From assembly GCF_024436055.1 (NCBI RefSeq), contig NZ_JANFNH010000054.1, positions 1 through 47,772 on the forward strand: 47,772 nucleotides of DNA, written 5' to 3'. Every line of letters begins with the position of its first letter. The first letter of the stretch is position 1. Below, in pieces: positions 30,795-45,768 of this stretch. The notes beneath the pieces were generated by a model. The model searched no databases and had not been told where the DNA came from. It saw only the letters and a list, made by a program, of their open reading frames with translations. Source of the stretch: Streptantibioticus rubrisoli. Lineage in GTDB: Bacteria; Actinomycetota; Actinomycetes; Streptomycetales; Streptomycetaceae. Made by a program: the position numbers and the translations under genes.

Positions 30795-30896
30795 CCTTCG
30801 ACCAACCCCCTGACAAGGAGTGATCGCCGTGGACGCACACCCATCTGCCCCATCTATCCGTGCCGCTTCGGCGGCCCACCCTGGGAGGTCCCCACC

Positions 30897-32357
30897 ATTA
30901 CCGCGTCCGGCGGAACCCACACAGCGTCGGCTGACCGGCGCGCCGCCCTCGACCGCGCGGCGCGCCTGCGTCAGCTCTCCGACATCGACCGCGACATCCT
31001 CACCCGCGCCCAAGGCCCCCTGTTCCACCGCTGGCTGGAACAGATCCGCGCCACTGGCGGATGCGCCCACCCGATCCACCTGACCGGCTCCACTACCACC
31101 CGCGATGCGGCGACCGGCGAAGTGCTCCGCCACTACGACACAGCCGGTGAACCCGGTGAGCGTCTTCTCGTCCGCTGCCGCAACCGCCGTGCCACCGTGT
31201 GCCCGGCCTGCTCCCGCCTCCACGCGGGCGACACCTACCACCTGGTGCGTGCCGGACTCGTCGGCGGCAAGACCGTCCCGGCCACGGTGCGCGAGCGGCC
31301 CCGATTGTTCCTCACCCTCACCGCCCCGTCCTTCGGCGCCGTGCACCGAGCCACAGGCGGGGAGCGCTGCCAGCCTCGCCGCGGCGGCGGCCACTGTGAA
31401 CACGGGCGCCCGGTCGGCTGCGGCCTGGTCCACGCGGACACCGACCCGCAGGTCGGCCAACCGCTGTGTCCCACTTGCTACGACTACCCGGCACACATCC
31501 TGTGGCACGCGTACGCGGGACGGTTGTGGAAGGCGTTCACCGACAACCTGTACAACCACCTGGCCGCACGTCTCGGTTACACCCGCACCGAACTACGCCG
31601 CGCCCTGCGGGTCTCGTACGCCAAGATTGCCGAGTACCAACGCCGCGCCGCGGTCCACCTCCACGTGGTCGTGCGCCTGGACGGCAACGGCGGCGCTGAT
31701 GAGCCGCCCCTGACCTGGGCAACCGCGGACCTGCTCACCGACACCGTCCGCACCGCGGCTGCGGCGGTCAACCTCCGCGCTCCCTACAGCGCGGCACTCG
31801 GTGAACACGCACTCACCTGGGGCACCCAGCTCGACATCCGACGGCTACGAGCCTTCGGGGCCGGTGAGGGCCAGGCAGATGATGCCGTAGCCGCGTACGT
31901 CGCGAAGTACATCACCAAGGGCGCCGACGACACCGGGGTCGGCACCGACCACCGAATCACCGACCCCGCGGAGATCGAGCACGCGCCGGTGTCTCCGCAC
32001 GTCCGCACCCTGATGCGCACCTGCTGGCGCCTCGGCGGCTTGCCCGAACTCGCGCCGCTCAGGCTGCGCGCCTGGGTTCACACCCTGGGATACCGCAGCC
32101 ACATTCTCACCAAGTCCCGCTGCTACTCGACCACTTACTCAGCCCTGCGCGCTCAACGCGCCGAATATGAACGCGGCCCCGACTTGGCCGACGACCCGGG
32201 CACGGTCACCGAGTCCCGGTGGCGCTACGCCGACTCCGGCCACACCCCCGGCGCCGCCCTCATCGCTGCCGGAATCGCCCAGGATCTCGCCCGGAATCGA
32301 GAGATCGCCCTGGAGCAGATGAAACGGTTCCCCGTTGGGGGTGTCGTTGATGCCTGA
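30897..32357 (+). CDS. RepSA-like rolling-circle replication initiator with apparent ATT start
   Basis: A protein of 486 residues if started at ATT 30897. HUH-type nickase features are YQRRAAVHLHVVVRLDG (HxH) near residue 260 and the catalytic Tyr region AAYVAKYITKG; several Cys clusters (VCPACSRLHAG, LCPTCYDYPAH) precede them. Known: RepSA-type proteins replicate AICEs by rolling circle. The reading frame RRAALDRAARLRQLSD is open and well coded from 30897, but has no ATG/GTG/TTG before GTG 31122, which would remove 75 conserved-looking residues. GGGAGG lies 7-8 bases before the ATT. Either AUU initiation or a sequence error/frameshift upstream. Confidence 0.82.
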   Translation: MTASGGTHTASADRRAALDRAARLRQLSDIDRDILTRAQGPLFHRWLEQIRATGGCAHPIHLTGSTTTRDAATGEVLRHYDTAGEPGERLLVRCRNRRATVCPACSRLHAGDTYHLVRAGLVGGKTVPATVRERPRLFLTLTAPSFGAVHRATGGERCQPRRGGGHCEHGRPVGCGLVHADTDPQVGQPLCPTCYDYPAHILWHAYAGRLWKAFTDNLYNHLAARLGYTRTELRRALRVSYAKIAEYQRRAAVHLHVVVRLDGNGGADEPPLTWATADLLTDTVRTAAAAVNLRAPYSAALGEHALTWGTQLDIRRLRAFGAGEGQADDAVAAYVAKYITKGADDTGVGTDHRITDPAEIEHAPVSPHVRTLMRTCWRLGGLPELAPLRLRAWVHTLGYRSHILTKSRCYSTTYSALRAQRAEYERGPDLADDPGTVTESRWRYADSGHTPGAALIAAGIAQDLARNREIALEQMKRFPVGGVVDA

Positions 32358-32490
32358 CCGGGCGACAAAGCGGCGCAAGCCCATGACGAAGGAAGAATGG
32401 TTAAGACGTGAGCTAGCCAAGGCGCCGGAGCGTAGCGAGGAATGGTGCGCAGAGATGTTGAAGCTGTTCGGTCTGAAGAGAGTTGAATAA
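32350..32490 (+). CDS. 46-residue protein overlapping the end of rep
   Basis: Seen: ATG 32350 overlaps the rep stop by 8 bases; the frame reads MPDRATKRRKPMTKEEWL and ends EMLKLFGLKRVE, stop at 32488-32490, immediately before a terminator. A basic N-terminus and amphipathic helix with SEEWCAEML suggest a DNA- or protein-binding peptide. It occupies the slot where xis normally lies in AICEs. It contains a TTA codon (32401-32403). Function unknown. Confidence 0.6.
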   Translation: MPDRATKRRKPMTKEEWLRRELAKAPERSEEWCAEMLKLFGLKRVE

Positions 32491-33237
32491 GGCGGGTCCC
32501 TCATCGGCGTTAAGCGGGGGACCCGTTGGGGGGAACTGAGCTCCGCAACATCTGCTCGGCCACTGCCTCCGCAGCACAGCCTCGTACTCCCGGCAGCGCA
32601 CCGCCTCCAGCTCCGGCGGGTACCAAGGACCATCAGGACCCATCGGGCGGTAGTGCCAGTGCACGAGAGGATCAGTCTCCCTCTCGCACAGCGTCCTCGG
32701 CAAAGGGCCCTCGGGCAAATCGGGGTCAGACGCGGCGGCGGCGACCATAACCACCGCGGGGGGTCTAGGGCCTCGACGGCCACTCCACTGGCCCCGGCCT
32801 GAAGCTCCAGAAACACGAGAGCGGCCATACCCCGACCGTTGCGGCCCTCCGAGAAGAGGCGCACGCTGAGTGCGTCCGGTTGGCGACCGATAGGTTAGAA
32901 GGCTCCCAACCCCTCCACAACTCATAGCGCAATGCTGGCTCGGTCCGCTGCGCCATCAGGCCGAAACGCCCTGCAGACCGAATCGCTCGCACCTTCCGAG
33001 AATCCGTGCCGGTACGTTCCCACAGTTCGCCGCCCGGCGTGTAGGTGCGTGGTCTGGACCTTCGACGACCGACAATGCCCCGATATGGGGTTCGGCCAGA
33101 ATCCGCTCTCGTTCTCGCATCGAGAGTGTCATGTGGCCGACCCTAGAGTGATCGGCTTCGCAAGCTTTCTCTGTGGGTGCAAACTGATTGACCTACAGGA
33201 CATGTCCGCAGCTATAGAGGCCGTCGGCACGAACACC
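32491..33237. other. Largely non-coding stretch, possible decayed gene
   Basis: After the terminator, no frame is convincing. On the minus strand, about 32415-32750 encodes WYPPEL and CREYEAVLRRQWPSR, which looks protein-like and may be a remnant of a small gene, but start and context are missing. The right end (32930-33237) is of mixed composition with no signal seen. Confidence 0.45.
32493..32525 (+). terminator. Terminator of the tra-rep operon
   Basis: Seen: CGGGTCCC (32493-32500) and GGGACCCG (32518-32525), 3 bases after the stop of the 46-residue gene. Confidence 0.7.
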
Positions 33238-33918
33238 TTATGTAGCCGGTAGTTGGGTCGTCGAGAGTCGGATGCGCCGGACCCACTGTATGTGCCAAGG
33301 GGTTAGGTAGAAAGCCGCAAGGCCGACAATCGTGCTACAGATCGCGAGTGACCAGCACAAGACACTGAACGCCGATTGACCAGTCCAATCCCACCAACGG
33401 TCCCTGCCCGTCTCGTCCTGACCCAAGTAGGTGAGTGGGAAAATGGTGGCTACCGGCAGAATCCAGGACAGTGATCGCCCAAAGATCCGTCCCGAGAGCA
33501 CAGCCAGGCCGAGCCAGATCAAAAGAGCGCGGATGAGCAGAACCGAAGATTCTGCTCCATTCACGATTAGCTCGGTCCCGCCCACAAGTACAGTAGTAGC
33601 TGTGTAGACAGCCATGAGATGGCGTGACTCATAAGAACGGAGAGTGGTGGCCCCTGCCAGCTCCAACTGCCTCATTTTGCTGTGCAGGCTACCGGCGGCA
33701 AGTGAGGCGAATGCGATGGGCAGCTCTCGTCGCATAGGGACGCCGGTTGTCTGTCCGCCGTGTTCGAACGGAAAGGAAAGGAGCTGCGATCCAAACGCCG
33801 CATCGCACCCGGTCAGGAACAGAAGACCGACCGCCAAGCCTAGGAGGTTGTGTGAGCGAGCATAACTGGCAAGGGCAAACCAACGCCCGGTCACTCGCTT
33901 GTCATCCGCAGAAGGCAT
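33238..33918 (-). CDS. Polytopic membrane protein of the peptide/ABC operon
   Basis: A 226-residue protein with about five or six membrane helices (LGLAVGLLFLTG, HLMAVYTATTVLVGGTEL, ALLIWLGLAVLSG, ILPVATIFPLTYLG, LAICSTIVGLAAFYL). No cytoplasmic motif. ATG 33918 overlaps the upstream permease by 17 bases, so the two are co-translated. Likely a second transmembrane subunit or accessory of the ABC system; such ABC-2-type proteins often pair. Composition is less GC-rich than the chromosome, consistent with transfer. Confidence 0.7.
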   Translation of the reverse strand: MPSADDKRVTGRWFALASYARSHNLLGLAVGLLFLTGCDAAFGSQLLSFPFEHGGQTTGVPMRRELPIAFASLAAGSLHSKMRQLELAGATTLRSYESRHLMAVYTATTVLVGGTELIVNGAESSVLLIRALLIWLGLAVLSGRIFGRSLSWILPVATIFPLTYLGQDETGRDRWWDWTGQSAFSVLCWSLAICSTIVGLAAFYLTPWHIQWVRRIRLSTTQLPAT

Positions 33919-35179
33919 GGTGAATCGTCTCGATTCGTTGCTGCGCCCACTCGACCTGTGCGCCCTCCGGTTGCGTGACCACTCGGGCGACCGCATTGAG
34001 GTCTACATTCGGTGGGCCTCCATGCATCCCAGCCGGCACGCCTCCGCCGAAGATCCGCATCGCAAGCCAGACGTTGAGCTCTGCCTCCGCCTGTTTGAAC
34101 TGGTCTGTGATGCGTGGTCCGATAGGCAGCGGGCAGCCTTTGGGGCGTGACGCTGCCATGATCGAACCAGCAATCGTCACAGATGGATCCCACATGGAGC
34201 CATCCATTATGTAGAAGTCATCGTAGGAGTCGCGCATGCCCCGCAAACCGCGCTCATAGAACACTGTAGGTATGGTGAACATCCCAGCCGGAAGCCTTCG
34301 CATGCGATCTTGCATCTCCTGCGCTTGTGGCAAGTACTTATGGTCCTCAGGCCATACGCATACCTTTGGACTTCCACCAGACGTGCAGGCGGGTTGGCGT
34401 GGTGAGGAGCGCGGCACCTGCAAAGGCCCAGCTGTAACCATCCCTGCAATAACGGAAACGACGAGAGCGCCCAATGAAATAACTCTGAGCTGTCGCCGCC
34501 TTTTCCCCGCCCATGTATGGCCAACGCTACTGGAAGGGGGCCTCGTAACCAGACAGGCAGCTACCGTAAGGAGAAAGGCCAGAACACAGTGATCCACCAA
34601 AACAAGCAATGAGACTTGCTCGAATGGAGCTGCGGAGATAGCGAAAAGGCCGAGCGCGGTCGGCGCGCCGAACCAAGAAATGATGACCAAGCTGCCGAGG
34701 CCACAGAGTACAGGCCCAGCGAATTGGGAGCGTGACCGTCGGCCCACAAGGTGTCCCGCACTTGCGAATATCACCAACAAAGCGACGCCGAGAAAGATAT
34801 AAGTAGGCCACAGGAAGCCAGGCCCTGCGGTCGGCAAACTGACGCTTGCTGCCACCGCAACACCCACACCATAGACCACAAGCCCGTAGGTGAGTGTCGC
34901 CGACAACTGAGCGAGCTCGATCTGCCATCCGGGGCGTGCTGCGACGGCGAGTTGCTCATCGAGATTATTGCGGCTTGTCCGTCCAGCCGCCCAAGCCGCC
35001 GCTGCAGCCAGAAGAGATGCGAAGTAAAAGGCCGGGATCTGTGCCTGCGCACTAGTCTGTGGCCATTCACCAATCCACCAGAGGTTACGTCCGAAGAGCG
35101 CTACGAGGTCCAGCACCAAGAGCAACGGAAACCACCAGCGGAGAGGTGATCGCCGAAGCTCCGTCCAGTACAGCTTCAT
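33902..35179 (-). CDS. ABC-2-like permease with extracytoplasmic C-terminal domain
   Basis: A 425-residue protein. About seven membrane helices occupy the first 255 residues (first WWFPLLLVLDLVALF, last VISLGALVVSVIAGMVTAG). They are followed by a soluble domain of about 170 residues with Cys in ACTSGGSPKVCVW and C-terminal AFCG, expected outside the membrane. ATG 35179 overlaps the ATPase stop (ATGA). Inferred: with the ATPase it exports, or protects against, the secreted peptide encoded at the head of the operon. The large external domain is unusual and might recognise the peptide. Confidence 0.75.
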   Translation of the reverse strand: MKLYWTELRRSPLRWWFPLLLVLDLVALFGRNLWWIGEWPQTSAQAQIPAFYFASLLAAAAAWAAGRTSRNNLDEQLAVAARPGWQIELAQLSATLTYGLVVYGVGVAVAASVSLPTAGPGFLWPTYIFLGVALLVIFASAGHLVGRRSRSQFAGPVLCGLGSLVIISWFGAPTALGLFAISAAPFEQVSLLVLVDHCVLAFLLTVAACLVTRPPSSSVGHTWAGKRRRQLRVISLGALVVSVIAGMVTAGPLQVPRSSPRQPACTSGGSPKVCVWPEDHKYLPQAQEMQDRMRRLPAGMFTIPTVFYERGLRGMRDSYDDFYIMDGSMWDPSVTIAGSIMAASRPKGCPLPIGPRITDQFKQAEAELNVWLAMRIFGGGVPAGMHGGPPNVDLNAVARVVTQPEGAQVEWAQQRIETIHHAFCG

Positions 35180-35934
35180 CGCTCGCCTACCGTTCGCCTG
35201 TTCAATACGGCCATGTACCCACGCTCCAGGGGGGTGTCTCCCACACCGTCGCCGGACGGCGCCTGTGCGCTAAGGTCCCTCGGACTCCCCTGGAAGAGGA
35301 ACTCTCCCGAGCTCATCACTGCGACTTCTCTGCAGATCGCCGCCACATCTTCGACAAGATGCGTGCTGAGTACAACGGCTGTATTGTTAAGCGACCTGAT
35401 CAGTTTACGGAATTCTAGGCGCTGGGCGGGGTCGAGGCCGACCGTTGGCTCGTCGAGCAACACAAGTCGTGGTGAACCAACTAGTGCGGCGGCTATCCCA
35501 GCGCGACGCACCATCCCGCCGGACAGCGACTTCATCTTCGCTTTCATACGGTCACTGAGCCCGACCTGATCGATCACACGAACCGCGGCCTCATGAACAC
35601 GCGCTGATGGTACCTCGCGCAGCCACGCGCAATACCTTACGAATTCGTAAACAGAGAACCCCGGATGGTAGCCGAAATCCTGGGGCAGATATCCAATTTG
35701 GCGGCGAACGAGGCGAGCGGCTCTCTCCGACGTGACCTCTTGGCCGACAATCTCAATAGTCCCAGAAAGCGGTGGCGTGATCGTCGCGAAGGTGCGTAGC
35801 AAGGTCGTCTTTCCTGCGCCGTTCGGACCAAGGAGACCGAATACGCCGTGGCCGATATCAAGGTCCAAGCCTGAAATGACAGCGCTTTTTCCGTAACCTT
35901 GGGTCAGGCCCGAAACGCGAACTACCGTGTCCAT
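35176..35934 (-). CDS. ABC transporter ATP-binding protein
   Basis: A 252-residue ATPase. Walker A LGPNGAGKTTLLR, Q loop GYLPQDFG, signature LSGGMVRRAG, Walker B LVLLDEPTVGLDP and H loop LSTHLVED are all intact. Class: ABC-2 exporters (DrrA/CcmA-like). ATG 35934 is chosen with AAGAGG upstream; GTG 35949 is in frame. It is separated from the peptide gene by a strong hairpin (35955-35992) and is overlapped by the permease gene. Predicted to energise export or resistance for the operon's peptide. Confidence 0.88.
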   Translation of the reverse strand: MDTVVRVSGLTQGYGKSAVISGLDLDIGHGVFGLLGPNGAGKTTLLRTFATITPPLSGTIEIVGQEVTSERAARLVRRQIGYLPQDFGYHPGFSVYEFVRYCAWLREVPSARVHEAAVRVIDQVGLSDRMKAKMKSLSGGMVRRAGIAAALVGSPRLVLLDEPTVGLDPAQRLEFRKLIRSLNNTAVVLSTHLVEDVAAICREVAVMSSGEFLFQGSPRDLSAQAPSGDGVGDTPLERGYMAVLNRRTVGER

Positions 35935-35954
35935 GTGCGACCTCTTCACCTAAA

Positions 35955-35992
35955 AGCCGTGTGCCGCAACGCTCAACCTGCGGCACACGGCT
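35955..35992 (-). terminator. Terminator/attenuator between peptide gene and ABC genes
   Basis: Seen: AGCCGTGTGCCGCA and TGCGGCACACGGCT, perfect 14-bp arms with a 10-base loop; on the minus strand it is followed by TTTTA. A homologous hairpin follows the second peptide gene (39189-39225). Probably lets most transcripts stop after the peptide, with read-through into the transporter. Confidence 0.85.
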
Positions 35993-36022
35993 CAATTACT
36001 CAATCCGATCAGTATGCGTTGA

Positions 36023-36364
36023 TCAACCGGAGAAGTTGATCCACGAACTGTTTACGGACCAAGTGCACTCCACCGTACCCCAGGCGTTGACGGTTGAACC
36101 TCTACCGAACCAACCCCAGGAAGAATATGAATTGGTTTCAGCGTAGCAATCTGCGTAATTCTGGTAGTTACCGCTTACGGTGACGTACGGGTCGGTGCAG
36201 TGCCCGTCCGAAGACGTGTTCCCCCACCATGAGTAGCAGCCATTCGTGGTGGGACTGGTACTAGCAGATGCCATGGGTGCGACACCACCGATAGCACCGG
36301 CTGCCAGGGCGCCGATCAAAGAGACCTTAGCCAGGCGCGAGCGCCCAACTCGCGAAATAGCCAT
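36023..36364 (-). CDS. Secreted four-Cys peptide precursor, copy 1 (unknown family)
   Basis: A 113-residue precursor. The signal peptide (about 1-35: SRVGRSRLAKVSLIGALA, cut near ASA-S) is followed by a mature part of about 78 residues, rich in Trp, Tyr, Ser, Asn and Gly, with four Cys (NGCYSWWGN, GHCTDPYVTV, ADCYAET, VECTWSV), enough for two disulfides. It ends SSWINFSG. AGGAGG stands 7 bases before ATG 36364. It heads the leftward ABC operon. Its paralogue at 38817 has the same length, an almost identical leader and signal, and divergence mainly in residues 75-100. No known bacteriocin or inhibitor family recognised. Bacteriocin-like or signalling role is inferred from context. Confidence 0.8.
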   Translation of the reverse strand: MAISRVGRSRLAKVSLIGALAAGAIGGVAPMASASTSPTTNGCYSWWGNTSSDGHCTDPYVTVSGNYQNYADCYAETNSYSSWGWFGRGSTVNAWGTVECTWSVNSSWINFSG

Positions 36365-36504
36365 ACCGAAACCTCCTGGTTGACGTTTTCGGGGTGCACG
36401 CAGCCCGCACTCAGCCAGGCCCCCCGCGGTGATCAACTTTACGAGGCGGCCGGGTTGCCGGTCAATCAATCTTGAGACCCTGCACCATATGTCACTATTA
36501 CTTT
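36365..36504 (-). repeat. 140-bp peptide leader repeat, copy 1 (inverted)
   Basis: Seen: identical, as reverse complement, to 38677-38816. It runs from AAAGTAATAGTGACATATGG to the base before the peptide ATG and includes the ribosome site. It should contain the promoter and/or a structured 5' leader. Confidence 0.95.
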
Positions 36505-36716
36505 TAAATAAGGCTGCTAAACTATCAACCATCAGGGCGAGTTGGGTCAAACTGGCTCAAGGTCATGTGTTTGGGACACACCTAGAGGGCCTATCCGCCT
36601 TGAATTTAGGAATTAAGGGCAGTTATGTCCTAATTCCGCAGCAATTAACACCGGCGGCTGGCCGAAGCACGCTCCGGGGAGCGGGCTGTCGCAGTCCCTC
36701 GCTCCCACGCGGTACC
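36365..36716. other. Divergent region between peptide 1 and PadR gene
   Basis: Left 140 bases are the leader repeat; the rest (36505-36716) is AT-richer than the surroundings (TTTAAATAAGG; GGTCATGTGTTTGGG; GGAATTAAGGG) and must hold the PadR promoter and, probably, its operator. No coding sequence seen. Confidence 0.6.
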
Positions 36717-37079
36717 ATGCGCCGCATGGATCCTTCCGGTGGACGGTCCGAGCTTGCCCAACTACGGCGCGGTGTCCTGCAGTTCTGCGTCATGACTCTT
36801 CTGCGTGACGGCGAAAAGTATGGTTTTGAGCTAGTGAGAGAGCTTCGTGATGCTCAGGGGCTCGTGGCAAGCGAGGGAACGATTTATCCGCTACTGGCCC
36901 GGCTCCGCAACAAGGGGCTGGTGAACTCCTTCTGGCGGGAATCTGAGTCCGGGCCTCCCCGCCGTTACTACACGTTGACGACAGCTGGCTCTCGTGCGTT
37001 GAGGCAGTTCACAGCCGACTGGGTATCGTTCCGAACTGCCGTTGATCACCTGCTGGACCTCGAGGAGAACCACCTATGA
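36717..37079 (+). CDS. PadR-family transcriptional regulator
   Basis: A 120-residue winged-helix repressor: LRRGVLQFCVMTLLRDGEKY, then GFELVRELR, ASEGTIYPLLARLRNKGLV (recognition helix and wing) and RYYTLTTAGSRALRQF. Known: PadR proteins repress ABC transporter or detoxification genes and are relieved by ligands, including peptide antibiotics. ATG 36717 or 36726; neither has a good ribosome site, and translation may be leaderless. Coupled to the HAAS protein by ATGA overlap. It lies between the two outward-facing peptide genes and is the obvious candidate to control both. Confidence 0.85.
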   Translation: MRRMDPSGGRSELAQLRRGVLQFCVMTLLRDGEKYGFELVRELRDAQGLVASEGTIYPLLARLRNKGLVNSFWRESESGPPRRYYTLTTAGSRALRQFTADWVSFRTAVDHLLDLEENHL

Positions 37080-37603
37080 CCTCCATGCCGAACCAGCTCA
37101 TCGAGGACTATCTGCACCGCCTCGACAATGCCTCTGCGTTCCTCACTCGCCATCGGCGAGCCGAGCTTCGGGAGGAGATTCGGGACCACATCAGCGCGGC
37201 CTTGAAGGAAGCTGCTACATGGGATGAAGACACCGTGCGTGCAGTCCTCGAACGGTTGGGGCCCCCCGCGGAGATCGCCGCAGCTGAGACGGGTTCACCG
37301 TCTACCGGCGCCGGTCCTGTCGTTACCCCGATCGGCCTTTCCGTAGCCGGGCCACACACTGATTCTTCCGCAACCGACACAGCTCACGATCTGACGGCCC
37401 ATCCGGAGATCACACACACGCTGGTGGTATCAAGCGGTAAGCGTTTCGGTAAGAAGACACTCTACGGGGCAGGAATAGTCGGCCTGCTCACTGGACTGGC
37501 GGTAATGGGTGCGTGCTCTACGAGCGGACAAGTGCACAACACGCCCATTCCTTCACCACCAACCTCTAACTCTACTCGCCCGCCACACTCAGGACAGCCC
37601 TAA
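37076..37603 (+). CDS. HAAS-domain membrane protein, PadR partner
   Basis: A 175-residue protein. The N-terminal HAAS-type helix (about 1-70: LIEDYLHRLDNASAFL, AELREEIRDHISAALKEA) is followed by a low-complexity linker, a single membrane segment with a lipobox-like MGACSTSG (about 140-160), and a Pro/Ser/Thr-rich end. Known: HAAS/DUF1700 proteins are encoded next to PadR regulators and are thought to modulate them at the membrane. ATG 37076 overlaps the PadR stop. The ending outside the membrane (STSGQVHNT) could sense the peptide (inference). Confidence 0.75.
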   Translation: MTSMPNQLIEDYLHRLDNASAFLTRHRRAELREEIRDHISAALKEAATWDEDTVRAVLERLGPPAEIAAAETGSPSTGAGPVVTPIGLSVAGPHTDSSATDTAHDLTAHPEITHTLVVSSGKRFGKKTLYGAGIVGLLTGLAVMGACSTSGQVHNTPIPSPPTSNSTRPPHSGQP

Positions 37604-38370
37604 GCGACTTTGGCGAAGCTCGCTGCTGGACCTTGGATGCGTGCGCGTTGGAGGGTGGTGAGTGCCTGATCGACGGTTGCGCGGATGGCGTCGATGGTGC
37701 CGACCGCTAGATGCGTTTGATGTCGTTGAGTTCGGGGCTGCCCCGTGGCAGGTAGAACAGGCGCACGCCGACGGTGCAGGGCGGGTGCGGCGCCAGCCGG
37801 GCGGTGGGTCGGCCAGCGCGGCAGCCCAGCGAGGGGGTGCACACGAATTCCAGCAGCATCCCGGCGTCGATCTTGCTGCTGGTCTTCTCCCTCAGCAGGT
37901 CCGCATCCCGTCCGACCGCCAGCGCGGCGAGCACGTTGACGCGGCGGTCCTTGTTGTCCTCGCGCGGGACTACGGCCCGTTCACCGACGGGTCGACCAGG
38001 TTTAGCCGGTGGGCATGGTAGGCGCGAATCCGTTGAGGAAGTATAGATCGCTCACACATCGATGTCCGTGCTCAGCCGCAAAGCCGTAGGTCCTCCAACT
38101 CGGCCTTGTCACCCTGCTGGAGGACGAGTCGGCCTTGTGCCGCAGCGCGTCCCGGCCCGGTTCCAGCGGAAGCCCTCCTCGCGCAGCGCTTCGGTCAGCC
38201 ATGCCGCCGAGACGCTCACGCCGCGCTCGATGGCCAGCCAGTCGCACAGCGCAGCAGCCGTCCACGTCTGGCCCTGCGCCGCCGACTCGTCCTCCAACGC
38301 GTCGAACTCGCCGCTGTCGCAGGCCTCGGCGACTGCCTGCAACTGCTGAAGGTCAGCCCGCGAGGGGCTC
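37600..38370 (-). pseudogene. IS630-family transposase remnant
   Basis: Seen on the minus strand in several frames: an N-terminal part with FDALEDESAAQGQTWTAAA and SAAWLTEALREEGFRWNR (HTH of IS630 transposases), a middle fragment LRHKAD, and a C-terminal DDE part LAPHPPCTVGVRLFYLPRGS with ELNDIKRI, ending AVGTIDAIRATVDQALTTLQ and a stop at 37600. Frame changes and missing catalytic segments show it is dead. Its stop region overlaps the end of the HAAS gene by a few bases. No terminal inverted repeats found. Confidence 0.8.
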
Positions 38371-38816
38371 CCGGGCTGGCTAAGGCCTACCCGGTACAGC
38401 CCGTTCTTCTACCAGTTGCTGCACTCCCTGGCGTCTTCCGGGGCCCCTCAGCCTCGCTTCGAAGCAAGGTATGCCGGTTCGCACGACTTTGGCCCTTCAC
38501 TCTCGGAGCGCACTCTGGCCAGCCGTCGGAGTTGACTCCTATGCAATTGGGGCATAGTGGCCCTACTTCCTAGATTCAAGGCGTTAGGTGAATCTCAAGG
38601 CCCGTCCAAAAAATCTAGCTTGGGAGGAGTTTGACCTAAATGGCTATAACAAAGGTTGCTTTAGTGGTTTGATTTGAAAGTAATAGTGACATATGGTGCA
38701 GGGTCTCAAGATTGATTGACCGGCAACCCGGCCGCCTCGTAAAGTTGATCACCGCGGGGGGCCTGGCTGAGTGCGGGCTGCGTGCACCCCGAAAACGTCA
38801 ACCAGGAGGTTTCGGT
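38371..38816. other. Region between IS630 remnant and peptide 2
   Basis: AT-richer than the chromosome. It contains GGAGGAG (38623-38629) followed by ATG 38640 with the ten-codon frame MAITKVALVV and stop 38670-38672, which resembles the start of the peptide precursors (MAISRV). The 140-bp leader repeat (38677-38816) follows at once. Confidence 0.6.
38677..38816 (+). repeat. 140-bp peptide leader repeat, copy 2 (direct relative to peptide 2)
   Basis: Seen: same sequence as the complement of 36365-36504, ending with AGGAGGTTTCGGT before the ATG. The two inverted copies plus the signal-peptide coding parts form an inverted repeat of over 200 bases flanking 36.5-38.7 kb. Confidence 0.95.
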
Positions 38817-39158
38817 ATGGCTATTTCGCGAGTTGGGCGCTCGCGCCTGGCTAAGGTCTCTTTGATCGGCGCCCTGGCAGCCGCTGCTATCGGTGGTGTC
38901 GCACCCATGGCATCTGCTAGCACAAGCGGAACCACGAATGGCTGCTACTCATGGTGGGGGAACACATCCTCGGACGGGCACTGCACCGACCCGTACGTCA
39001 CCGTAAGCGGTAACTACCAGAATTACGCTAGCTGCGCCTACGAGACTGATTCGTGGTCGTACTGGAAGTACTTCTCGCAAGGCACTGCTCCCAACGCTTG
39101 GGGTGGCGTGGAGTGCACCTGGTCTGTCAGAAGTTCGTGGATAAACTTTACCGACTGA
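38817..39158 (+). CDS. Secreted four-Cys peptide precursor, copy 2 (unknown family)
   Basis: A 113-residue paralogue of the product at 36023-36364. The signal peptide differs at one residue. The mature part shares NGCYSWWGNTSSDGHCTDPY and VSGNYQNY, then diverges (SCAYETDSWSYWKYFSQG versus DCYAETNSYSSWGWFGRG), and shares AWG-VECTWSV and SSWIN. Cys number is the same, although the third Cys is followed by AYE rather than YAE. ATG 38817 with AGGAGG. No ABC gene follows; a terminator at 39189-39225 ends the unit. Suggests a two-component peptide or a duplicated, diversifying toxin/signal. Confidence 0.8.
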   Translation: MAISRVGRSRLAKVSLIGALAAAAIGGVAPMASASTSGTTNGCYSWWGNTSSDGHCTDPYVTVSGNYQNYASCAYETDSWSYWKYFSQGTAPNAWGGVECTWSVRSSWINFTD

Positions 39159-39493
39159 TCGACGCAAACTGATCGAAACAAGTAGTTGAGCCGTGTGTCG
39201 CATGTTTGCCGTGCGGCGCACGGCTTTCAGGTGGAGAGTTGTTGCATCGCGTCGGCATTTTGTCCCTTCCGTGTGTGATTCAAAACAGAATGAGTCGGTC
39301 TCCGGCGTATTGCATCTTCACGACATGCTCGACGCAGAGGACTCGTCTGGCTTGCTCGCTGCCGAACAGAACGTCTGGTGGATGGAGGATGACCCCGGAC
39401 GGCCAACTGCCGGACCACACAGCACGCCCGCCTCGTCGTGCACGCGCGGGGTGCACAACTAGTGGGGATTCATTCTGTAGGCGTTGTTAGCGC
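39159..39493. other. Non-coding region between peptide 2 and integrase
   Basis: Holds the peptide 2 terminator and about 260 bases with no convincing gene. GGCG-TTGTTAG-CGCC just before 39494 may terminate the leftward integrase gene. Confidence 0.55.
39189..39225 (+). terminator. Terminator after peptide 2
   Basis: Seen: AGCCGTGTGTCGCA (39189-39202) pairing with TGCGGCGCACGGCT (39212-39225), with two G-U pairs, followed by TT. Same sequence family as the hairpin 35955-35992 after peptide 1. Confidence 0.75.
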
Positions 39494-41089
39494 CTATTCG
39501 CCCTTGGTCCAGAGGATCTCAATGAAGGCCGGATCGAATCGCTTTCCGCGTCCAACCTGATGGATGAGCACGGCGCGAATGGATCGCCTCAGCCTGGCGC
39601 GCTTCTCGCTTGTGGTGTAGTCCTTCCACCGCCTCAGGATTTCCTCATCCGTATCAGTGGCGGTCTTGGCCTTGGCGGCCTGCAACTGCCGGGTCTCTTT
39701 GACGAGTCGTGCTTCCTCTTTTTCGAGGCTTTCGATCATGTCCATCGCCGCGATGACAGAGATACGCTTCGCGTCACGTCGGTTCTTGACTTGCTTCTTT
39801 TCCCAGTCGATTTCCTTCAGGCGGGCGTCGTTCTTGGCCGTGTCGATGACCTCAGCCTTGGCTGCCTCAGCCTTCTTCAACCGCTTTCGTAGGTCATCCA
39901 GGAAGGCGGTCTCTACGAGATCGTCAACGGGAGGTCCTACCCGCGATACCCCGCCGCATCCGCCAAGTGATGACCTGCACTGGTAGCGGAACCGGTATTT
40001 GGCGTAGGCCCCGGTTCCCTTGGTGTACAGGGTGGCCCTCATCGGGAAGAAACACTCTCCGCACCGCGCGATGCCAGTAAGGAAATAGGCGGGTGACGTG
40101 TCGTGGGCCGGATTCCCTTCTCGGTTCGCTTCCTTACGTGCCTCGATGGCGCTAACGCACGCGGCCCACTCCTCGGGAGTGCAGGCGGGCTCCCAATCTC
40201 CGATGACCGGCTTACCGTCCTTGTAGAGGACGTGGTCCGGGAGCCATAGGCGTGACGACTCCCGGTGTAGCTGCTGCGGGATGTACACCATGTACCCGCA
40301 GTTCCTTGGGTTGACCAGACGAGCCTCGACCGTGGAGTGCTGAAGCGTCCAGTTGTTCCCGCTCTCCCGGGACTTCTTGTTGGCCCTCGGGGTGTAGCCC
40401 GCTTCGATCCATTCCTTCCGGACCTCGCCGACCAACTTGCCGCCGGGGATGGCTCGTATCGCCTTCAGGAGGTCTTCCGCCTCCTTGGCGTGCAGGGTCT
40501 CCCGGTCGTCGTTCCACCCGAACGGACGCGGGCCACCGTGCTTCTTGCCCCTCATGGCGCGGGCCTTGTTCGTGCCGCTGACGCGTCGCTTGGTGTTGGC
40601 GACTTCGTAGGCGCCCATGGTGGCCTGCACCATGAACGTGGTGCGGCCTTCCTGGGTGCTCAGATCGGTGCCGCCGTCCAGGGCGCGGCCGACGTAGCTG
40701 GGGAACATCGCGAAGATGCGGTTCACGCGTGCGGCGTCGTACTCCAGCCGGGCCACGCGGTCTGAGTGTGTGAAGAGGAAGCCGCGAATCTCGCCGCTCT
40801 CAAGGTCCTTGAGCATCTGCTCAAAGTCGCGGCGGACGATGAACGGGTCTGAGGCGGGAGTGTTGTTGTCGTTGTACTCGCGGACGACGACGCATCCGAA
40901 GCGGGGTGCTGCCTCGTGGAGCCTGCGGCGCTGTTCGGCTACCTGCTCGCCCTCTTCGCGGTCCTCGTTGCCAGCGCGCAACGCCTTGTCCTCGGACAGG
41001 CGGACGTAGATGCCGACCGGTGTACGTCCCTGCTCTAGCGCTAACGCTCGGGCAACAACGTCTATGCAGCTCAAGTCAGTTGACGTCAT
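39494..41089 (-). CDS. int: Large serine recombinase (integrase)
   Basis: A 531-residue integrase. The N-terminal resolvase domain (about 20-170) has VGIYVRLSED with the nucleophilic Ser, FLFTHSDRVARL and RRVSGTNKARAM. The recombinase domain has the PRPFGWNDD motif. The zinc ribbon has CGECFFPM and CRSSLGGCGG, and the C-terminal coiled coil about 400-480 (RLKKAEAAKAEVID, IESLEKEEARLVKE). Known: such enzymes integrate unidirectionally between attP and attB without host factors, and need a directionality factor to excise. ATG 41089 lies within a 7-bp inverted repeat. The right attachment core is 46 bases away. Confidence 0.93.
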   Translation of the reverse strand: MTSTDLSCIDVVARALALEQGRTPVGIYVRLSEDKALRAGNEDREEGEQVAEQRRRLHEAAPRFGCVVVREYNDNNTPASDPFIVRRDFEQMLKDLESGEIRGFLFTHSDRVARLEYDAARVNRIFAMFPSYVGRALDGGTDLSTQEGRTTFMVQATMGAYEVANTKRRVSGTNKARAMRGKKHGGPRPFGWNDDRETLHAKEAEDLLKAIRAIPGGKLVGEVRKEWIEAGYTPRANKKSRESGNNWTLQHSTVEARLVNPRNCGYMVYIPQQLHRESSRLWLPDHVLYKDGKPVIGDWEPACTPEEWAACVSAIEARKEANREGNPAHDTSPAYFLTGIARCGECFFPMRATLYTKGTGAYAKYRFRYQCRSSLGGCGGVSRVGPPVDDLVETAFLDDLRKRLKKAEAAKAEVIDTAKNDARLKEIDWEKKQVKNRRDAKRISVIAAMDMIESLEKEEARLVKETRQLQAAKAKTATDTDEEILRRWKDYTTSEKRARLRRSIRAVLIHQVGRGKRFDPAFIEILWTKGE

Positions 41090-41096
41090 GTCAACT
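41078..41096 (-). promoter_or_regulatory. Inverted repeat enclosing the integrase start codon
   Basis: Seen: AGTTGAC (41078-41084), GTCAT, GTCAACT (41090-41096). On the mRNA strand the ATG lies in the 5-base loop/arm junction. Could be an operator or an RNA hairpin limiting integrase translation. Confidence 0.5.
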
Positions 41097-41133
41097 AGGC
41101 TAGCAAGAAAGAAGGTGTCTCAGTGGTGTTCTG

Positions 41134-41262
41134 TCAGAAGAAGACCACACGCCACTTGCCCTCGTAGCTCTTGTGGTTGATCTGGGCGAACGCCTTGTCG
41201 GCGTCCAGGTCGACGCAGGCGGTCAGGTCGTACTCGGGGAACTTGTCACCAACGGTGAGCAT
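41134..41262 (-). pseudogene. ahpC: Stranded 5' fragment of canonical ahpC
   Basis: Seen: ATG 41262 with GGAGG 8 bases upstream encodes [18 protein letters not shown], then LDADKAFAQINHKSYEGKWR and VVFF, after which the element junction creates an in-frame TGA. Known: this is the usual Streptomyces AhpC N-terminus. It lacks the peroxidatic Cys and must be inactive, yet keeps its promoter and ribosome site, so a 42-residue peptide may be made. It is the part displaced from ahpC by the integration. Confidence 0.92.
41135..41148. other. attR core of the integrated element
   Basis: Seen: CAGAAGAAGACCAC, identical to 21559-21572. Left side runs into integrase-proximal element DNA; right side runs into the canonical ahpC 5' coding sequence. 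Confidence 0.8.
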
Positions 41263-41693
41263 CTGAGATGCCTCCACGATCATGAGGGGTTGGACTCTGT
41301 CCAGGGTGCCACAGGGCCATTGATCCAGAAAAATTGCCACTCGCTGGATGATTGATCGGGATCTGCGATCAAATGGCTGTCGCATTGATAAGCAGGCGGT
41401 GGGTGCGTTGGCCGGGGCCTATTCCGCGCCGATGCGTGAGGAAGCTCACGCTCTGCTACCTCTGGGGCGTTGGACCCGGTGCACAGATCACCCGTCCCCT
41501 CGTCTGCTTCCTTACCTGCTGGATACGTTCGCTGTCGAGTTGCGCGCCGCTAACCGCCTCGGCGGCGCGCGGCATGAGTGTGCGACTAAGGGGAGTGGTA
41601 CGGGCATGCCGTCTGGCGCTGGGACGAACGAGGGAGCGGGGTTCACATCGGCGGTTGACGCCCGAGTCATGACCGGGGCATGCCGACAAACGG
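41236..41693. repeat. ahpC leader/APH-start repeat, copy B
   Basis: Seen: near-identical to 21660-22116, covering nine ahpC codons, promoter region and the truncated APH start. Divergence is scattered, so the copies are not a recent duplication. Confidence 0.95.
41263..41605. other. ahpC promoter region, copy B
   Basis: Same layout as 21687-22028: leader of ahpC, AT-rich promoter, ATGGCT at 41373-41378 that may be the lost oxyR start, and hairpin GCGTGAG-GAAG-CTCACGC. No gene of its own. Confidence 0.55.
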
Positions 41694-41701
41694 GGTTCTG
41701 A
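41606..41701 (+). pseudogene. Truncated APH-family gene
   Basis: Seen: 31 codons from ATG 41606, MPSGAGTNEGAGFTSAVDAR then VMTGACRQTGF and stop. The first 29 or so match the gene at 22029 almost exactly; the rest of the kinase is missing. Confidence 0.9.
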
Positions 41702-41788
41702 CCGCAGTTCCGTGAATCATCACGGGGCTTCACCACCCCGGTGGTGACGCCAGCGGTACCCGGCAACCCCTGCGGTGCCGCGGAGCCT

Positions 41789-41829
41789 CGGTGGTCCGTC
41801 CGGCCGCTGCCGGGCGGGACGGACCACCG
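41789..41829 (-). terminator. 13-bp stem terminator of the SnoaL-like gene
   Basis: Seen: CGGTGGTCCGTCC (41789-41801) and GGACGGACCACCG (41817-41829). It lies about 45 bases past the stop of the leftward gene. Confidence 0.8.
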
Positions 41830-41872
41830 TCGGGCCGGTGGAGCCCGGCGCATTTCGCGCTCGGGCCGTCGC

Positions 41873-42253
41873 TCAGGCCGTGCCGAGCGGATTGAGCACG
41901 GCGAACCGCCAGCAGCCGTCAACGCCCCGGCACGCGACGTTGGCGGTGGTGCCGGTCGGGGCGACACGCTCGCCATCGGGGCCGGTGACTTCCAGGGTCC
42001 AGTCGGTGACCAGCAGCGCGGCCTCGGCGCCGACCAGGGTGTGCCGGGGGATGTTGGTGAGCCGTCCACGGGCGGCGACGGTCCCGCTGATCTCCCGGCG
42101 CAGCGCCTCGTGACCGGCGATGACCTCGCCGGCCGGCGTGCGCATGGTGGCGCCAGGGGCGAACAGGGCCAGTACGCCCTCGACATCACCGCCGTTCAGG
42201 GCATCCTCGAACGCGCCGGGCAGCAGTGCGGGATCGGTGATCGCAGTCTTCAC
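41873..42253 (-). CDS. SnoaL-like / NTF2-fold protein
   Basis: A 126-residue cone-shaped-fold protein: FEDALNGGDVEGVLALFAP, GATMRTPAGEVIAGHEALRR, VGAEAALLVTDWTLEV and CWRFAVLNPLGT. Known: members include polyketide cyclases, ketosteroid isomerase-like enzymes and DUF4440 proteins; the substrate cannot be told. GTG 42253 with AAGGAC upstream. Divergent from an AraC regulator 149 bases away, which probably controls it. Cargo within the decayed element. Confidence 0.8.
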   Translation of the reverse strand: MKTAITDPALLPGAFEDALNGGDVEGVLALFAPGATMRTPAGEVIAGHEALRREISGTVAARGRLTNIPRHTLVGAEAALLVTDWTLEVTGPDGERVAPTGTTANVACRGVDGCWRFAVLNPLGTA

Positions 42254-42402
42254 AGTGGTGGGTCCTTACCTGGTGTGTGCCCATCGGGGCAGGGATGTAC
42301 GAGCGCGCCGCCGGGTTCAGGGGCGCAGACCGGCAGCACGCGGCGACGCCTCCACGATCCCCGCCAAGGCGCTCCCGGGACGAGGTAGGGTCGGGACCCG
42401 CC

Positions 42403-43302
42403 ATGGTCAAAGTTGGACAACGCGACGTCATCGACATCGCCTACCGCAATCCCGACCGCCCGCGGCTGGGCATCGAGGTCCTGACGTACGACGTCCTGCG
42501 CCGCCGCATGAAAAGGGCGGTCGCCCACACCGCGAGCCGACCGGACTTCCATCAACTGCTCCTCGTACGAGGCGGTGAGGCAAGCATGATGGTCGATTTC
42601 GTCCCCCAGCCCTGCGCACCGGGCAGACTGCTGCATCTGCGGCCCGGGCAGGTCCAGCGGTTCCCGGTCGATGCTGAGGGCCGCCTGGCTGAACTGGATG
42701 CCGTGCTGGTGCTGTTCACCGCCGCCTTCCCACCGCGCCTGGCTCAGCTCGCGTCCCTCCTCGACGGCTTCGGCCCGGCCGGTTGGACGCTGTCCCCGGG
42801 CGACCACCAGGTTCTCGACCGGGCCCTGGCCGAGATCGCGGCCGAGTACCACACCCTGGAGGAGCGCCGAGATAAGACGGACGCCGACCTGACCGTCTCG
42901 CTGCTGCGCCAGCTCCTCGGCGCGGTGCTGCTGCGCCTGGCCCGGCTGCCCCATCCGGACCGTGCCGCCTCGGCGATGGTCGGCGGCGAGGTCTTCCGTG
43001 CCTTCCGGTACGAGCTGGAGCGCTCCTTCGCCGCCACCCGCTCCGTGCAGAAGTACGCCGCCCGACTCGGCTACTCACCACGCACCCTGACCCGGGCCTG
43101 CCAGGCCGCTACCGGCCGCACCGCCAAAGAACTCATCGACGCCCGCGCCGCGCTGGAGGCGCAGCGCCTGCTCGTGCACACCGACCTGCCCGTCGCCGCG
43201 ATCGGCCGGATGCTCGGATTCTCCGAACCCGCCAACTTCGGGAAGTTCTTCACCCGCGAGACCGGCGACACCCCCGGCGGCTTCCGCACCCGTCGGCGCT
43301 AG
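42403..43302 (+). CDS. AraC-family transcriptional regulator
   Basis: A 299-residue regulator. The N-terminal cupin-like sensor (about 15-120: FHQLLLVRGGEASMMVDFVP, LLHLRPGQVQRF) is followed by a C-terminal double HTH (about 205-295: VQKYAARLGYSPRTLTRACQ, ELIDARAALEAQRLL, IGRMLGFSEPANFGKFF). Known: AraC activators sense small ligands. ATG 42403; no strong ribosome site is visible, and an upstream extension is possible. Divergent from the SnoaL-like gene, its probable target. Confidence 0.88.
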   Translation: MVKVGQRDVIDIAYRNPDRPRLGIEVLTYDVLRRRMKRAVAHTASRPDFHQLLLVRGGEASMMVDFVPQPCAPGRLLHLRPGQVQRFPVDAEGRLAELDAVLVLFTAAFPPRLAQLASLLDGFGPAGWTLSPGDHQVLDRALAEIAAEYHTLEERRDKTDADLTVSLLRQLLGAVLLRLARLPHPDRAASAMVGGEVFRAFRYELERSFAATRSVQKYAARLGYSPRTLTRACQAATGRTAKELIDARAALEAQRLLVHTDLPVAAIGRMLGFSEPANFGKFFTRETGDTPGGFRTRRR

Positions 43303-43314
43303 TGGCGGGGTCGG

Positions 43315-43670
43315 CACTCCCAACTCGTTGTCGCTGTCGGCCGGCCGCTGCCCGGCAACCGCAATGATTGCAAGGCGTGGGAACTTTCCGGCGCGATGGC
43401 CGCCGTCGGCCGGGCCACGGTCATGCGGTCGGCGGCTATCGGGGCACCGGCCTGCTCATTCCATACTGCCGTGAACGCGGCCAGACCGAACTGCCCGCTT
43501 GGAAAGAGGAGCACAACACTTCCCACCGCAAGGTCCGGACCCGCGTCGAGCGCGTCTTCGCGCGGATGAAGGCTTGGAGGATCCTTCGTGACTGCCGTCC
43601 GCAAGGCGACGGCGTTCACACCGCCATGCTCGGTATCGCCCGGCTGCACAACCTCGCCCTCACGGGGTAA
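43315..43670 (+). pseudogene. IS5-family (DDE_Tnp_4-like) transposase fragment
   Basis: Seen: C-terminal transposase sequence split by a frameshift: GRPLPGNRNDCKAWE in one frame, then GYRGTGLLIPYCRERGQTEL, HRKVRTRVERVFARMKAWRI and MLGIARLHNLALTG. The final catalytic Glu region is present but the N-terminal half and its Asp residues are absent. Abuts the AraC stop codon. Confidence 0.85.
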
Positions 43671-43740
43671 CCCCCGCCCCATACGAGATCAGAGAGGCCC
43701 GGGGAGGCGGCTCCCCCGCATCCCCCGGCTCGGAGAATGC

Positions 43741-44175
43741 TCAGTCGAGATCGAACTCGTTGCCCTCGATGTCCAGCATGAGGATGCACGACTCGTTTTC
43801 CTCATCGGCATACAGCGTTTGCACGTGGGTGGCGCCGAGCGCGACCAGTCGTGCGCACTCGGCTTCGAGCGTGGCGAGGCGCTCGTCCCCCACGAGCCCG
43901 GTGCCGACCCGGACGTCGAGATGCACCCGGTTCTTGACGATCTTGCCTTCGGGGATGCGTTGGAAGTACAGGCGCGGGCCCACGCCTGAGGGATCACTGC
44001 AGGCGAACCATGAACCCTGCTCCGCAGGAGGCAGAGTGCGGTTGAAATCGTCCCAGGTGGCGAACCCCTCCGGTGGCGGCGGTATGACGTACCCCAGCAC
44101 CTCGCACCAGAAGCGAGCGAGGCGTTCAGGTTCTGCGCAGTCAAAGGTGACTTGGAACTTCTTGATCGCTGACAT
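43741..44175 (-). CDS. VOC-superfamily (glyoxalase-like) protein
   Basis: A 144-residue protein of two beta-alpha-beta-beta-beta modules: VTFDCAEPERLARFWCEVLG at the start, PRLYFQRIPEGKIVKNRVHL in the middle and ILMLDIEGNEFDLD at the end. His and Glu at the VHLDV and GNEFDLD sites may bind a metal. Known: this subgroup (glyoxalase-like domain) includes dioxygenases and resistance proteins but most members are uncharacterised. ATG 44175; no clear operon partner. Confidence 0.82.
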   Translation of the reverse strand: MSAIKKFQVTFDCAEPERLARFWCEVLGYVIPPPPEGFATWDDFNRTLPPAEQGSWFACSDPSGVGPRLYFQRIPEGKIVKNRVHLDVRVGTGLVGDERLATLEAECARLVALGATHVQTLYADEENESCILMLDIEGNEFDLD

Positions 44176-44645
44176 CGGCGCACCGTACCGCGTACAAGGG
44201 GGAGCCTGCCGCTCATTTCCTCAGGTGGATCCGCCAACCACCCGTCGCACCCAGGGCCGCCTTGGAAACCAAGTGATCAAACCAGGTCCCGCAGCCTACG
44301 GATGCGCCTCCGCCCCGAGGTGATGGCTGACGGCCGGTCTTTGGGGGAAGCGGCCGAGCCGTTGGCGCCAGTGGTGTTCGCGTCGTGCGGTGGTTAAGGG
44401 GAGTGCTTGATTGGGAGCTATCTGAGTGAAGGTGCCTCCTGAGTGCGATGGCGCAAATCGGTAGTGGGTAAACCGCCTCTTGCCCTCGCATGACCGCAAT
44501 GCAGGAGGACGCCCAAGGTAAGACGGCCGTGTGGACTGCCGCTCTGGCGGCAGTCTTCTCCTCTCTAGCCGCCCCGGCGGCAGCCGCCGAACCAATGCCT
44601 GTGCGAGGCGCTGTGGCCGGGCGGCAAGGCTGCCCGGCGCGCGGT
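44176..44645. other. Non-coding region with one strong hairpin
   Basis: Contains GACTGCCGC (44534-44542), loop TCTG, GCGGCAGTC (44547-44555) and then a pyrimidine tract TTCTCCTCTC, a probable rightward terminator. A short frame from ATG near 44500 covers it but is not convincing. Otherwise nothing recognised. Confidence 0.55.
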
Positions 44646-44735
44646 GCCGGGGGCTGTCGGCGGTGATGCGGTAGGCGAGTTGGGCGCTGTCGGCGGTGGT
44701 GGGTAACTCCTCTGGGAGGAGGGGTCGGGCTCCTG
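44646..44735 (-). pseudogene. GntR-family C-terminal fragment
   Basis: Seen: the minus strand encodes ARPLLPEELPTTADSAQ then LAYRITADSPRH, closely matching the last 30 residues of the regulator at 27809-28585 (LLLEELRAAADRAQ, LAYRITADSPRT). No upstream part remains. Marks the right part of the decayed element. Confidence 0.85.
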
Positions 44736-44820
44736 CGGCTTCGCGGGAGCCGGACACAGCGGCATAGAGTGCATTAATCAGTGAAACCGCCGCACGTCCT
44801 GAGCCCGACCGGAGACCCTT

Positions 44821-45768
44821 ATCAATAGCCAGCGTCAGCCGACCCTCGCCCAGTTGCGGGCGTTCGCCGCGGTTGCCGAGCATCTGCACTTCCGTGATGC
44901 CGCCGCTGCCATCGGGAGCAGCCAGCCCGCGCTGTCCGGTGCGGTCGCCGCGCTGGAGGAAGTGGTCGGCGTGCAGTTGGTGGAACGTACCACCCGCAAG
45001 GTGCTGCTCACCCCGGCCGGGGAGCGGCTGGCGGTGCGGGCGCAAGCGGTGCTGGACGCGGTCGGCGCGCTGATGGAGGAGGCCGAGGCGGTCCGGGCGC
45101 CGTTCACCGGGACGCTGCGGTTCGGGGTGATCCCGACCGTGGCACCGTATCTGCTGCCGACCGTGCTGCGGCTGGTGCACGAGCGCTATCCGGACCTGGA
45201 CCTGCAGGTCCACGAGGAGCAGACCGCCTCGCTGGTCGAGGGACTGGCCGCCGGGCGGCTGGACCTGCTGCTGCTCGCCGTGCCGCTCGGGGTGCCGTCG
45301 TTCACCGAACTGCCGCTGTTCGACGAGGACTTCGTACTGGTCACGCCGGAGGGGCATCCGCTCGCCGGGCGCGGTGACATCCCCCGTGATGTGTTGCGCG
45401 AACTCGACCTGCTGCTCCTTGAGGAGGGGCACTGCCTGCGGGACCAGGCGCTGGACATCTGCCGCGAGGTGGGACGACCGGAGGGCGTCCCGGTGGCCAC
45501 CAGCGCGGCCGGTCTGTCCACGCTGGTGCAGCTGGTGGCGGGCGGCCTGGGGGTGACGCTGCTGCCGCGTACCGCGGTGCGGGTGGAGACCGGGCGCAGC
45601 GGGCACCTGGCCACCGGGTACTTCCGGGAGCCCGCCCCCGCGCGGCGGATCGCGCTCGTCATGCGGGGCGGCACCGCGCGCGCCGAGGAGTTCGAGGAGT
45701 TCGCCTCGGCGCTGCGCGGTGCCCTGCGCGGGCTTCCGGTCCGGATCGTCGGGGAAGCCCGGCGGTAA
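44821..45768 (+). CDS. oxyR: Hydrogen peroxide-sensing LysR regulator OxyR, start codon missing
   Basis: A protein of about 315 residues. LysR HTH (LAQLRAFAAVAEHLHFRDAA, GSSQPALSGAVAALEEVVG) and an effector domain with the redox Cys candidate in EEGHCLRDQALDICRE, the OxyR signature. Known: OxyR activates ahpCD, which normally lies divergently next to it. Odd: the frame is open back to 44803 with no ATG, GTG or TTG before TTG 44854, which would cut into the first HTH helix. GGAG (44811-44814) stands 6 bases before ATC 44821, in the position of a start codon. The decayed element ends right here, so the first codons and promoter were probably removed. Confidence 0.85.
   Translation: MNSQRQPTLAQLRAFAAVAEHLHFRDAAAAIGSSQPALSGAVAALEEVVGVQLVERTTRKVLLTPAGERLAVRAQAVLDAVGALMEEAEAVRAPFTGTLRFGVIPTVAPYLLPTVLRLVHERYPDLDLQVHEEQTASLVEGLAAGRLDLLLLAVPLGVPSFTELPLFDEDFVLVTPEGHPLAGRGDIPRDVLRELDLLLLEEGHCLRDQALDICREVGRPEGVPVATSAAGLSTLVQLVAGGLGVTLLPRTAVRVETGRSGHLATGYFREPAPARRIALVMRGGTARAEEFEEFASALRGALRGLPVRIVGEARR

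Follow-up and report, generated by a model that had tools for sequence, protein, structure and literature searches.

The 47,772-nucleotide window analyzed here is one complete contig (NZ_JANFNH010000054.1) of the Streptantibioticus rubrisoli genome, which comprises 103 contigs and 7.26 Mb. It contains an element of the actinomycete integrative and conjugative element (AICE) type integrated in the peroxide-defence gene ahpC and, between the right end of this element and oxyR, a partial repeat of the element's left end. We refer to the left end of the element as copy A and to the partial repeat as copy B. Copy B begins inside a displaced piece of ahpC, and with moderate confidence we favour an origin by homologous exchange after integration, followed by decay. 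A first-pass annotation of the window had read the same DNA as a second, decayed element that once landed at this locus.

The resident element occupies positions 21559–41148 and has a 14-base core at each end. Its genes include an APH-family phosphotransferase, an NsdA-family regulator, a GntR regulator, an FtsK-type protein, RepSA and a serine integrase. Because a RepSA-type initiator, an FtsK/SpoIIIE-type transfer protein and an integrase with direct attachment (att) repeats are all present, we assign it as an AICE-type serine-integrase element integrated in ahpC. The features of the element and of its borders are as follows.

21132–21558, minus strand: host-derived 3′ part of ahpC, the left flank of the element (AhpC-TSA, PF00578), collinear with element-free relatives.
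21559–21572: left att core, CAGAAGAAGACCAC, common to 41135–41148.
21573–21686, minus strand: replacement ahpC 5′ end from the element, with a class A N-terminus; the listed frame extends to 21707.
21659–22116, plus strand: copy A, consisting of ahpC start, leader with the dyad TTGAT-N11-ATCAA (21775–21795) and APH start.
21771–22949, plus strand: APH-family phosphotransferase gene of the element (PF01636, 90.7 bits; below every NCBIfam cut-off), whose true start may be further on.
27809–28651, minus strand: GntR/UTRA regulator of the element (PF00392, PF07702).
29137–30450, plus strand: FtsK/SpoIIIE-type transfer protein (PF01580, 89.7 bits), with an NCBIfam TraB match under its cut-off.
31122–32357, plus strand: RepSA replication initiator of pSAM2 type (PF20199, 458.7 bits).
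39494–41089, minus strand: serine integrase of the element (PF00239 over its cut-off at 38.7 bits; PF13408 and PF07508 under theirs).
41135–41148: right att core, read from locus comparison.
41134–41262, minus strand: displaced host ahpC 5′ end (class B stub) of 42 codons, with a TGA stop at the core edge.
41235–41250: putative crossover stretch, CGGGGAACTTGTCACC, 16 bases common to the host stub and the element left end.
41235–41693, plus strand: copy B, an element-type ahpC leader with a truncated APH start; dyad at 41352–41372.

The 3′ part of ahpC is thus joined to a class A start supplied by the element, and the host's own class B start lies to the right of the integrase gene, which is on the same strand as the stub and 44 nt downstream of it. 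The core region was compared across 12 loci, and the att core falls within ahpC codons.

That copy B repeats the ahpC leader and the APH start, as the first-pass annotation described, is borne out by DNA comparison with the element: 41235–41693 matches 21659–22116 at 94% identity (432/459; E=0.0), and the APH frame terminates at 41701. Its limits have to be redrawn. The repeat had been placed from 41149, but 41149–41234 is the displaced 5′ end of the host ahpC; 41135–41260 is 96.8% identical to the corresponding stub in G001, which, together with G002, is one of the two same-genus genomes that we used for comparison. Similarly, the decayed stretch had been extended to 44820, but the insert ends at about 44752, and the match to the oxyR side of both relatives starts at 44755. 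G001 and G002 carry elements at the same ahpC site and have no copy B there; in these genomes the stub match ends just 73 bases short of the oxyR-side sequence. Because of this, the 3.5 kb that intervenes in the window (41262–44752) is, on the present comparison, an insert found in the window alone. Of the native leader, the ahpC side has been lost.

The junction between stub and copy B is chimeric. Homology to the element begins within CGGGGAACTTGTCACC, and the next differing bases (AACGG vs GACAG) are already of the element type. For these reasons the join looks like a homologous exchange at the ahpC start and not like the action of integrase at the core. No att core of its own was found for copy B, and no mobility-gene relic in the four insert frames scanned or in the DNA comparison; the core to its left belongs to the host stub. 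We also considered whether copy B could be the native ahpC leader and rejected this, as that leader can be read in G001 and G002, where the match to the stub stops at the start codon. A misassembly is conceivable, since copies A and B share a perfect repeat of 63 bases across which a chimeric junction could have been made. The copies differ outside these 63 bases, however, a single contig spans both of them, and the left junction is collinear with G001 and G002. We therefore regard an assembly error as very improbable.

The first-pass annotation proposed that the resident remnant itself became the attachment target for a second, site-specific landing. Such accretion has precedents, in that tandem AICEs at one site are described in PMC3218068, and elements are present at ahpC in several genomes. 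Integrases at least 50% identical to the one in the window occur at seven loci (the window, G001, G002, G150, G295, NBC_01481 and AA1529), and all seven lie at ahpC/oxyR. More distant integrases, of 25–34% identity, are found at other places in the S. rubrisoli genome and in G002. Matches with E≤1e-90 were present in 6 of 297 family genomes, our own included. In five of the seven loci a displaced class B stub is followed directly by the integrase gene on the same strand. The distance between the two is 44 bases in the window, 42 in G002, 113 in G150 and 14 in AA1529, where the integrase start may be further on; in G001 the arrangement was read by locus comparison. At the remaining two loci, NBC_01481 and G295, the integrase has oxyR on one side and on the other an ahpC whose start resembles class B (48% and 68% identity, respectively), and no displaced stub was found; we take these two loci to be decayed elements. 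They lend accretion some support, because class B left ends may exist. If the remnant came from an element of the present type, however, a class A stub would be expected between the integrase and copy B, and the actual stub is class B and host-like. Among the loci with a displaced stub, four have a left end that can be read, and all four are of class A. The core lies inside ahpC codons, and copies A and B are sisters (see below). A second site-specific landing thus seems improbable to us.

Three of these loci show further features. In G150 (L105, 10453–12284; L095, 7691–8245), which belongs to another genus, a class B stub has a 50% identical integrase directly behind it, and the two lie 51 kb from an ahpC with a class A start, which is how an element of 51 kb lodged in ahpC would look. 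The G001 integrase (L071, L072) is split into two frames, the second of which has an in-frame TAG. In AA1529, 4.3 kb lie between the stub and oxyR, and by eye the stub retains a host-type leader.

Both classes of ahpC start also occur without an element. Among 20 ahpC loci, which were hand-picked from DNA matches and are not a frequency sample (L034 and L036 were omitted as short), 17 have an uninterrupted ahpC beside oxyR and no integrase match; five of these are class B and 12 are nearer class A, which is the standing ahpC start there. The remaining three are L042 and L043, which contain integrase, and L095 (G150), where it is 51 kb off. More broadly, ahpC of the Streptomycetaceae (L033–L039, L089–L101) has two N-terminal classes, and the downstream gene is the same in both. 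These classes may reflect past exchange by such elements.

When did copy B arise? Over 457 ungapped columns, 5 changes are found in A only, 16 in B only and 17 in G001 only, and at 5 columns all three differ. Copies A and B thus differ at 26 positions, on which count we rejected a recent simple duplication. The first-pass annotation had named a divergence lower than that between unrelated strains as evidence that copy B arose by simple duplication after integration; the divergence is not lower, as A and G001 differ at 27 positions. Because the two distances are equal, the order of events depends on rooting with distant outgroups. We rooted the tree with G002, three class A leaders and seven APH homologues. 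The grouping of A and B as sisters was preferred in the approximately unbiased (AU) test (p=0.98; both alternatives p=0.02), with an ultrafast bootstrap of 91. It was again preferred without the 63 identical bases (0.97 vs 0.03) and with the later half alone (0.96 vs 0.04). Copy B therefore appears to be the sister of the present element's left end and not to fall outside the pair formed by the present element and that of G001. The cases are told apart by the rooted tree alone, and modestly so. As to the claim of a second, decayed element, decayed element-derived DNA is indeed present at the locus, but it groups with the neighbouring element in ancestry, and no core of its own was found.

Divergence from G001 bears on the age of the resident element. 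Identity between the window and G001 is 91.1% and 89.7% in the flanks and 92.1, 88.4 and 94.2% in three aligned parts of the element, and the synonymous divergence (dS) of the integrase (0.215) is close to that of oxyR (0.231). G001 has 2.5 kb of its own next to the GntR gene, and in the dS comparison a GNAT gene had no counterpart in either genome compared. The APH values (dN above dS) came from a wrong reading frame and are left out of that comparison. The element in G002 is another lineage, with an integrase dS of 0.61 vs 0.13–0.33 in the flanks. We read this pattern as suggesting one old insertion common to the window and G001, whose contents changed, followed by a duplication in the window. 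Because the aligned parts diverge from G001 about as the flanks do, the present element is probably older than the duplication.

The same data bear on a different history, in which a related element arrived earlier through homologous exchange at the intact ahpC start and decayed to copy B, and the present element integrated later into a still intact ahpC. This would yield the same junction of class B stub and element leader. It is in keeping with the equal A–B and A–G001 distances, and the clearly different G002 element at the same site indicates that elements turn over here. It would not lead one to expect, however, that copy B is sister to A rather than basal to A and G001, and the flank-like divergence of the aligned element parts favours an element older than copy B. 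We consider this history rather unlikely, though distinctly less so than a site-specific landing.

Between copy B and oxyR, the window contains the following features.

41873–42253, minus strand: SnoaL-like gene (profile match).
42277–43302, plus strand: AraC-type regulator gene (PF12833).
43368–43670, plus strand: DDE transposase fragment (PF01609, PF13359).
43741–44175, minus strand: glyoxalase-like gene (PF18029).
44635–44724, minus strand: GntR C-terminal fragment, 86% identical over 91 nt to 27820–27910 (2e-23).
44727–44751: hairpin-like 25-mer at the junction of insert and native DNA, single-copy in its own genome.
44752–45768, plus strand: native oxyR promoter region and oxyR (gene 44854–45768; LysR family), collinear with G001 and G002; the best NCBIfam match is OxyR, under its cut-off.

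The first-pass annotation described the middle of the insert as foreign genes with no integration or transfer genes left. Integrase, tra and rep families had no match in the four frames scanned (SnoaL, AraC, transposase and glyoxalase) or in the DNA comparison with the element. We rejected these genes as a pointer to the source of the insert, as they occur as separate units in other genomes. With the best one or two candidates per genome scored, the SnoaL/AraC block was found as a unit at 92% in one family genome and at 71–88% in others, and the block of transposase fragment and glyoxalase had matches in several genomes. The GntR fragment, which had been taken to continue the gene order of the element about 3 kb on, does match the GntR gene at its 3′ end, with order and orientation preserved, and two shorter matches (20 and 29 bases) to its left agree with that order. 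But it is short and not specific to the element, as it also matches a separate G002 contig (85%), the G001 element (82%) and another place in its own genome (81%). With two clear matches only, the second being this one, colinearity with the left half of the element is suggestive only. The 25-mer had no other copy at up to 3 mismatches in its own genome, G001 or G002.

Intact elements carrying copy B, which the first-pass annotation had suggested looking for, were not found among relatives, family genomes or plasmid records. With five candidates per genome scored in 100 relatives, leader and APH start were matched only in G001 (91%); G002 matched in the leader only (81%), and G007 matched stub and leader at 69%. 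In 394 family genomes, with the best two candidates scored, start, leader and APH occurred together only in G001; start and leader were matched in G002, G007, G017 and G028, and other genomes had APH homologues or ahpC starts alone. There was no match in 72,556 plasmid records.

Homologous exchange after integration could have proceeded as follows. The AICE-type element in ahpC brings a class A 5′ end and a promoter region of the ahpC–oxyR type. Its integration displaced the host's class B 5′ end to the right side of the element, beside oxyR, so that two ahpC starts in direct orientation flank it. Exchange between these starts, either unequally between sister chromosomes or with an extra-chromosomal copy, would then have put another copy of the element's left end immediately after the displaced host stub. 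Finally, replacement by other genes or deletion would have removed most of the second copy together with the native ahpC promoter, leaving the leader, the APH start and perhaps the GntR end.

Several observations weigh against this sequence of events. No intact tandem was seen, and the equal A–B and A–G001 distances already noted do not by themselves place the exchange after integration. Deeper branches of the tree are poorly supported, several of them at 14–52; the leader half alone gave no decision (AU 0.91 vs 0.14 and 0.11), and Kishino–Hasegawa and Shimodaira–Hasegawa tests on the reduced sets stayed above 0.05. Six other element genes have a dS of 0.25–0.43 vs 0.06–0.19 in the other three flank genes, and about 7.6 kb of the element (26646–27642 and 32892–39496) have no match in the G001 stretch; related elements could also have entered independently in the window and in G001. 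The GntR fragment may derive from another element, and the class-B-like starts beside integrase at NBC_01481 and G295 leave room for elements with a class B left end.

The leader shared by the two copies contains a perfect TTGAT-N11-ATCAA dyad, and a T-N11-A dyad of this kind is a LysR-type operator. Allowing at most one mismatch, the window has two such sites, at 21775 and 41352 (0.15 expected; two were reached in 1 of 100 shuffles). Of the 17 element-free loci, 10 have the dyad minus its last base in the ahpC–oxyR interval. The native dyad before oxyR (44800–44830) has lost one half in the window (CCGAC for TTGAT) compared with G001 and G002. The leader of copy B points toward the integrase gene and, judging from homology and the dyad only, may still act as a promoter for the stub and for the integrase gene that follows; a scan of 41090–41700 for sigma-70 type consensus gave no promoter-like site. 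With a cut at column 136 that was chosen after seeing the data, copy B has none of its own substitutions in 136 leader columns vs 16 in 321 later columns (Fisher p=0.004), compared with 4 and 13 for G001 (p=0.79) and 3 and 2 for A (p=0.16) over the same stretches. The copy B leader also has one inserted base, which if counted gives p=0.03, and at one of these 136 columns all three sequences differ; the inserted base and the choice of the cut count against a preserved leader.

We tentatively propose, as a possibility short of an even chance, that the ahpC-integrating family carries its own ahpC start and OxyR-type promoter and that integration swaps promoters. In the circular form, transcription from the element promoter would cross a short ahpC stub and the att core to reach the integrase gene. 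After integration, this promoter would take over ahpC, and the displaced host ahpC promoter would take over integrase. In the window, copy B would have put a second element-type promoter, maintained by selection, in place of the host one. If true, such a switch would tie integration and excision to peroxide stress.

Two repeats elsewhere in the window were also observed. Within the element, 35975–36521 and 38660–39206 are copies of each other in inverted orientation (92% over 406 nt, 80% over 115 nt) surrounding two small similar genes (36023–36550 and 38712–39158), neither with a Pfam match; they enclose PadR and HAAS genes, and an ABC transporter gene adjoins one copy. Outside it, at 20438–20536, just downstream of an ahpD-like gene, are five overlapping copies of a CGGGCCAACTCCTCTT-like repeat with 16-base spacing.

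These findings suggest how, with no site-specific accretion, a partial second copy can be gained through a repeat that the element itself creates in the form of two flanking gene starts. Such a partial copy mimics repeated landing, and genome scans may misread it. The locus as a whole suggests a family of elements that exchange one natural allele class for the other in the promoter and initial codons of a peroxide-defence gene and that may read their integrase from an ahpC promoter.

In ICEclc, the integrase of the circular form is driven by a promoter from the opposite end. By analogy, integration at ahpC would likewise change the promoter that reads the integrase gene; unlike in ICEclc, both candidate promoters would here be ahpC promoters, one of the host and one of the element. 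AICEs have been described in a Streptomyces population (PMC9513070), and PMC3218068 also reports serine-recombinase AICEs in protein genes and remnant AICEs. The present element resembles AICEs of this kind (pSAM2-like, with serine recombinases) in its RepSA initiator, FtsK-type protein, serine integrase, direct att repeats and insertion in a protein gene. By titles in the open-licence literature, we found no paper on ahpC as an AICE or serine-integrase site. The element differs from known AICEs in this site and in supplying a replacement promoter region and first codons of the other allele class. As in tandem accretion at one att site, element-derived DNA stands in a row at one locus; unlike in tandem accretion, the second piece is attached not at an att core but at the start of the gene, apparently through homologous exchange, and no core of its own was found.

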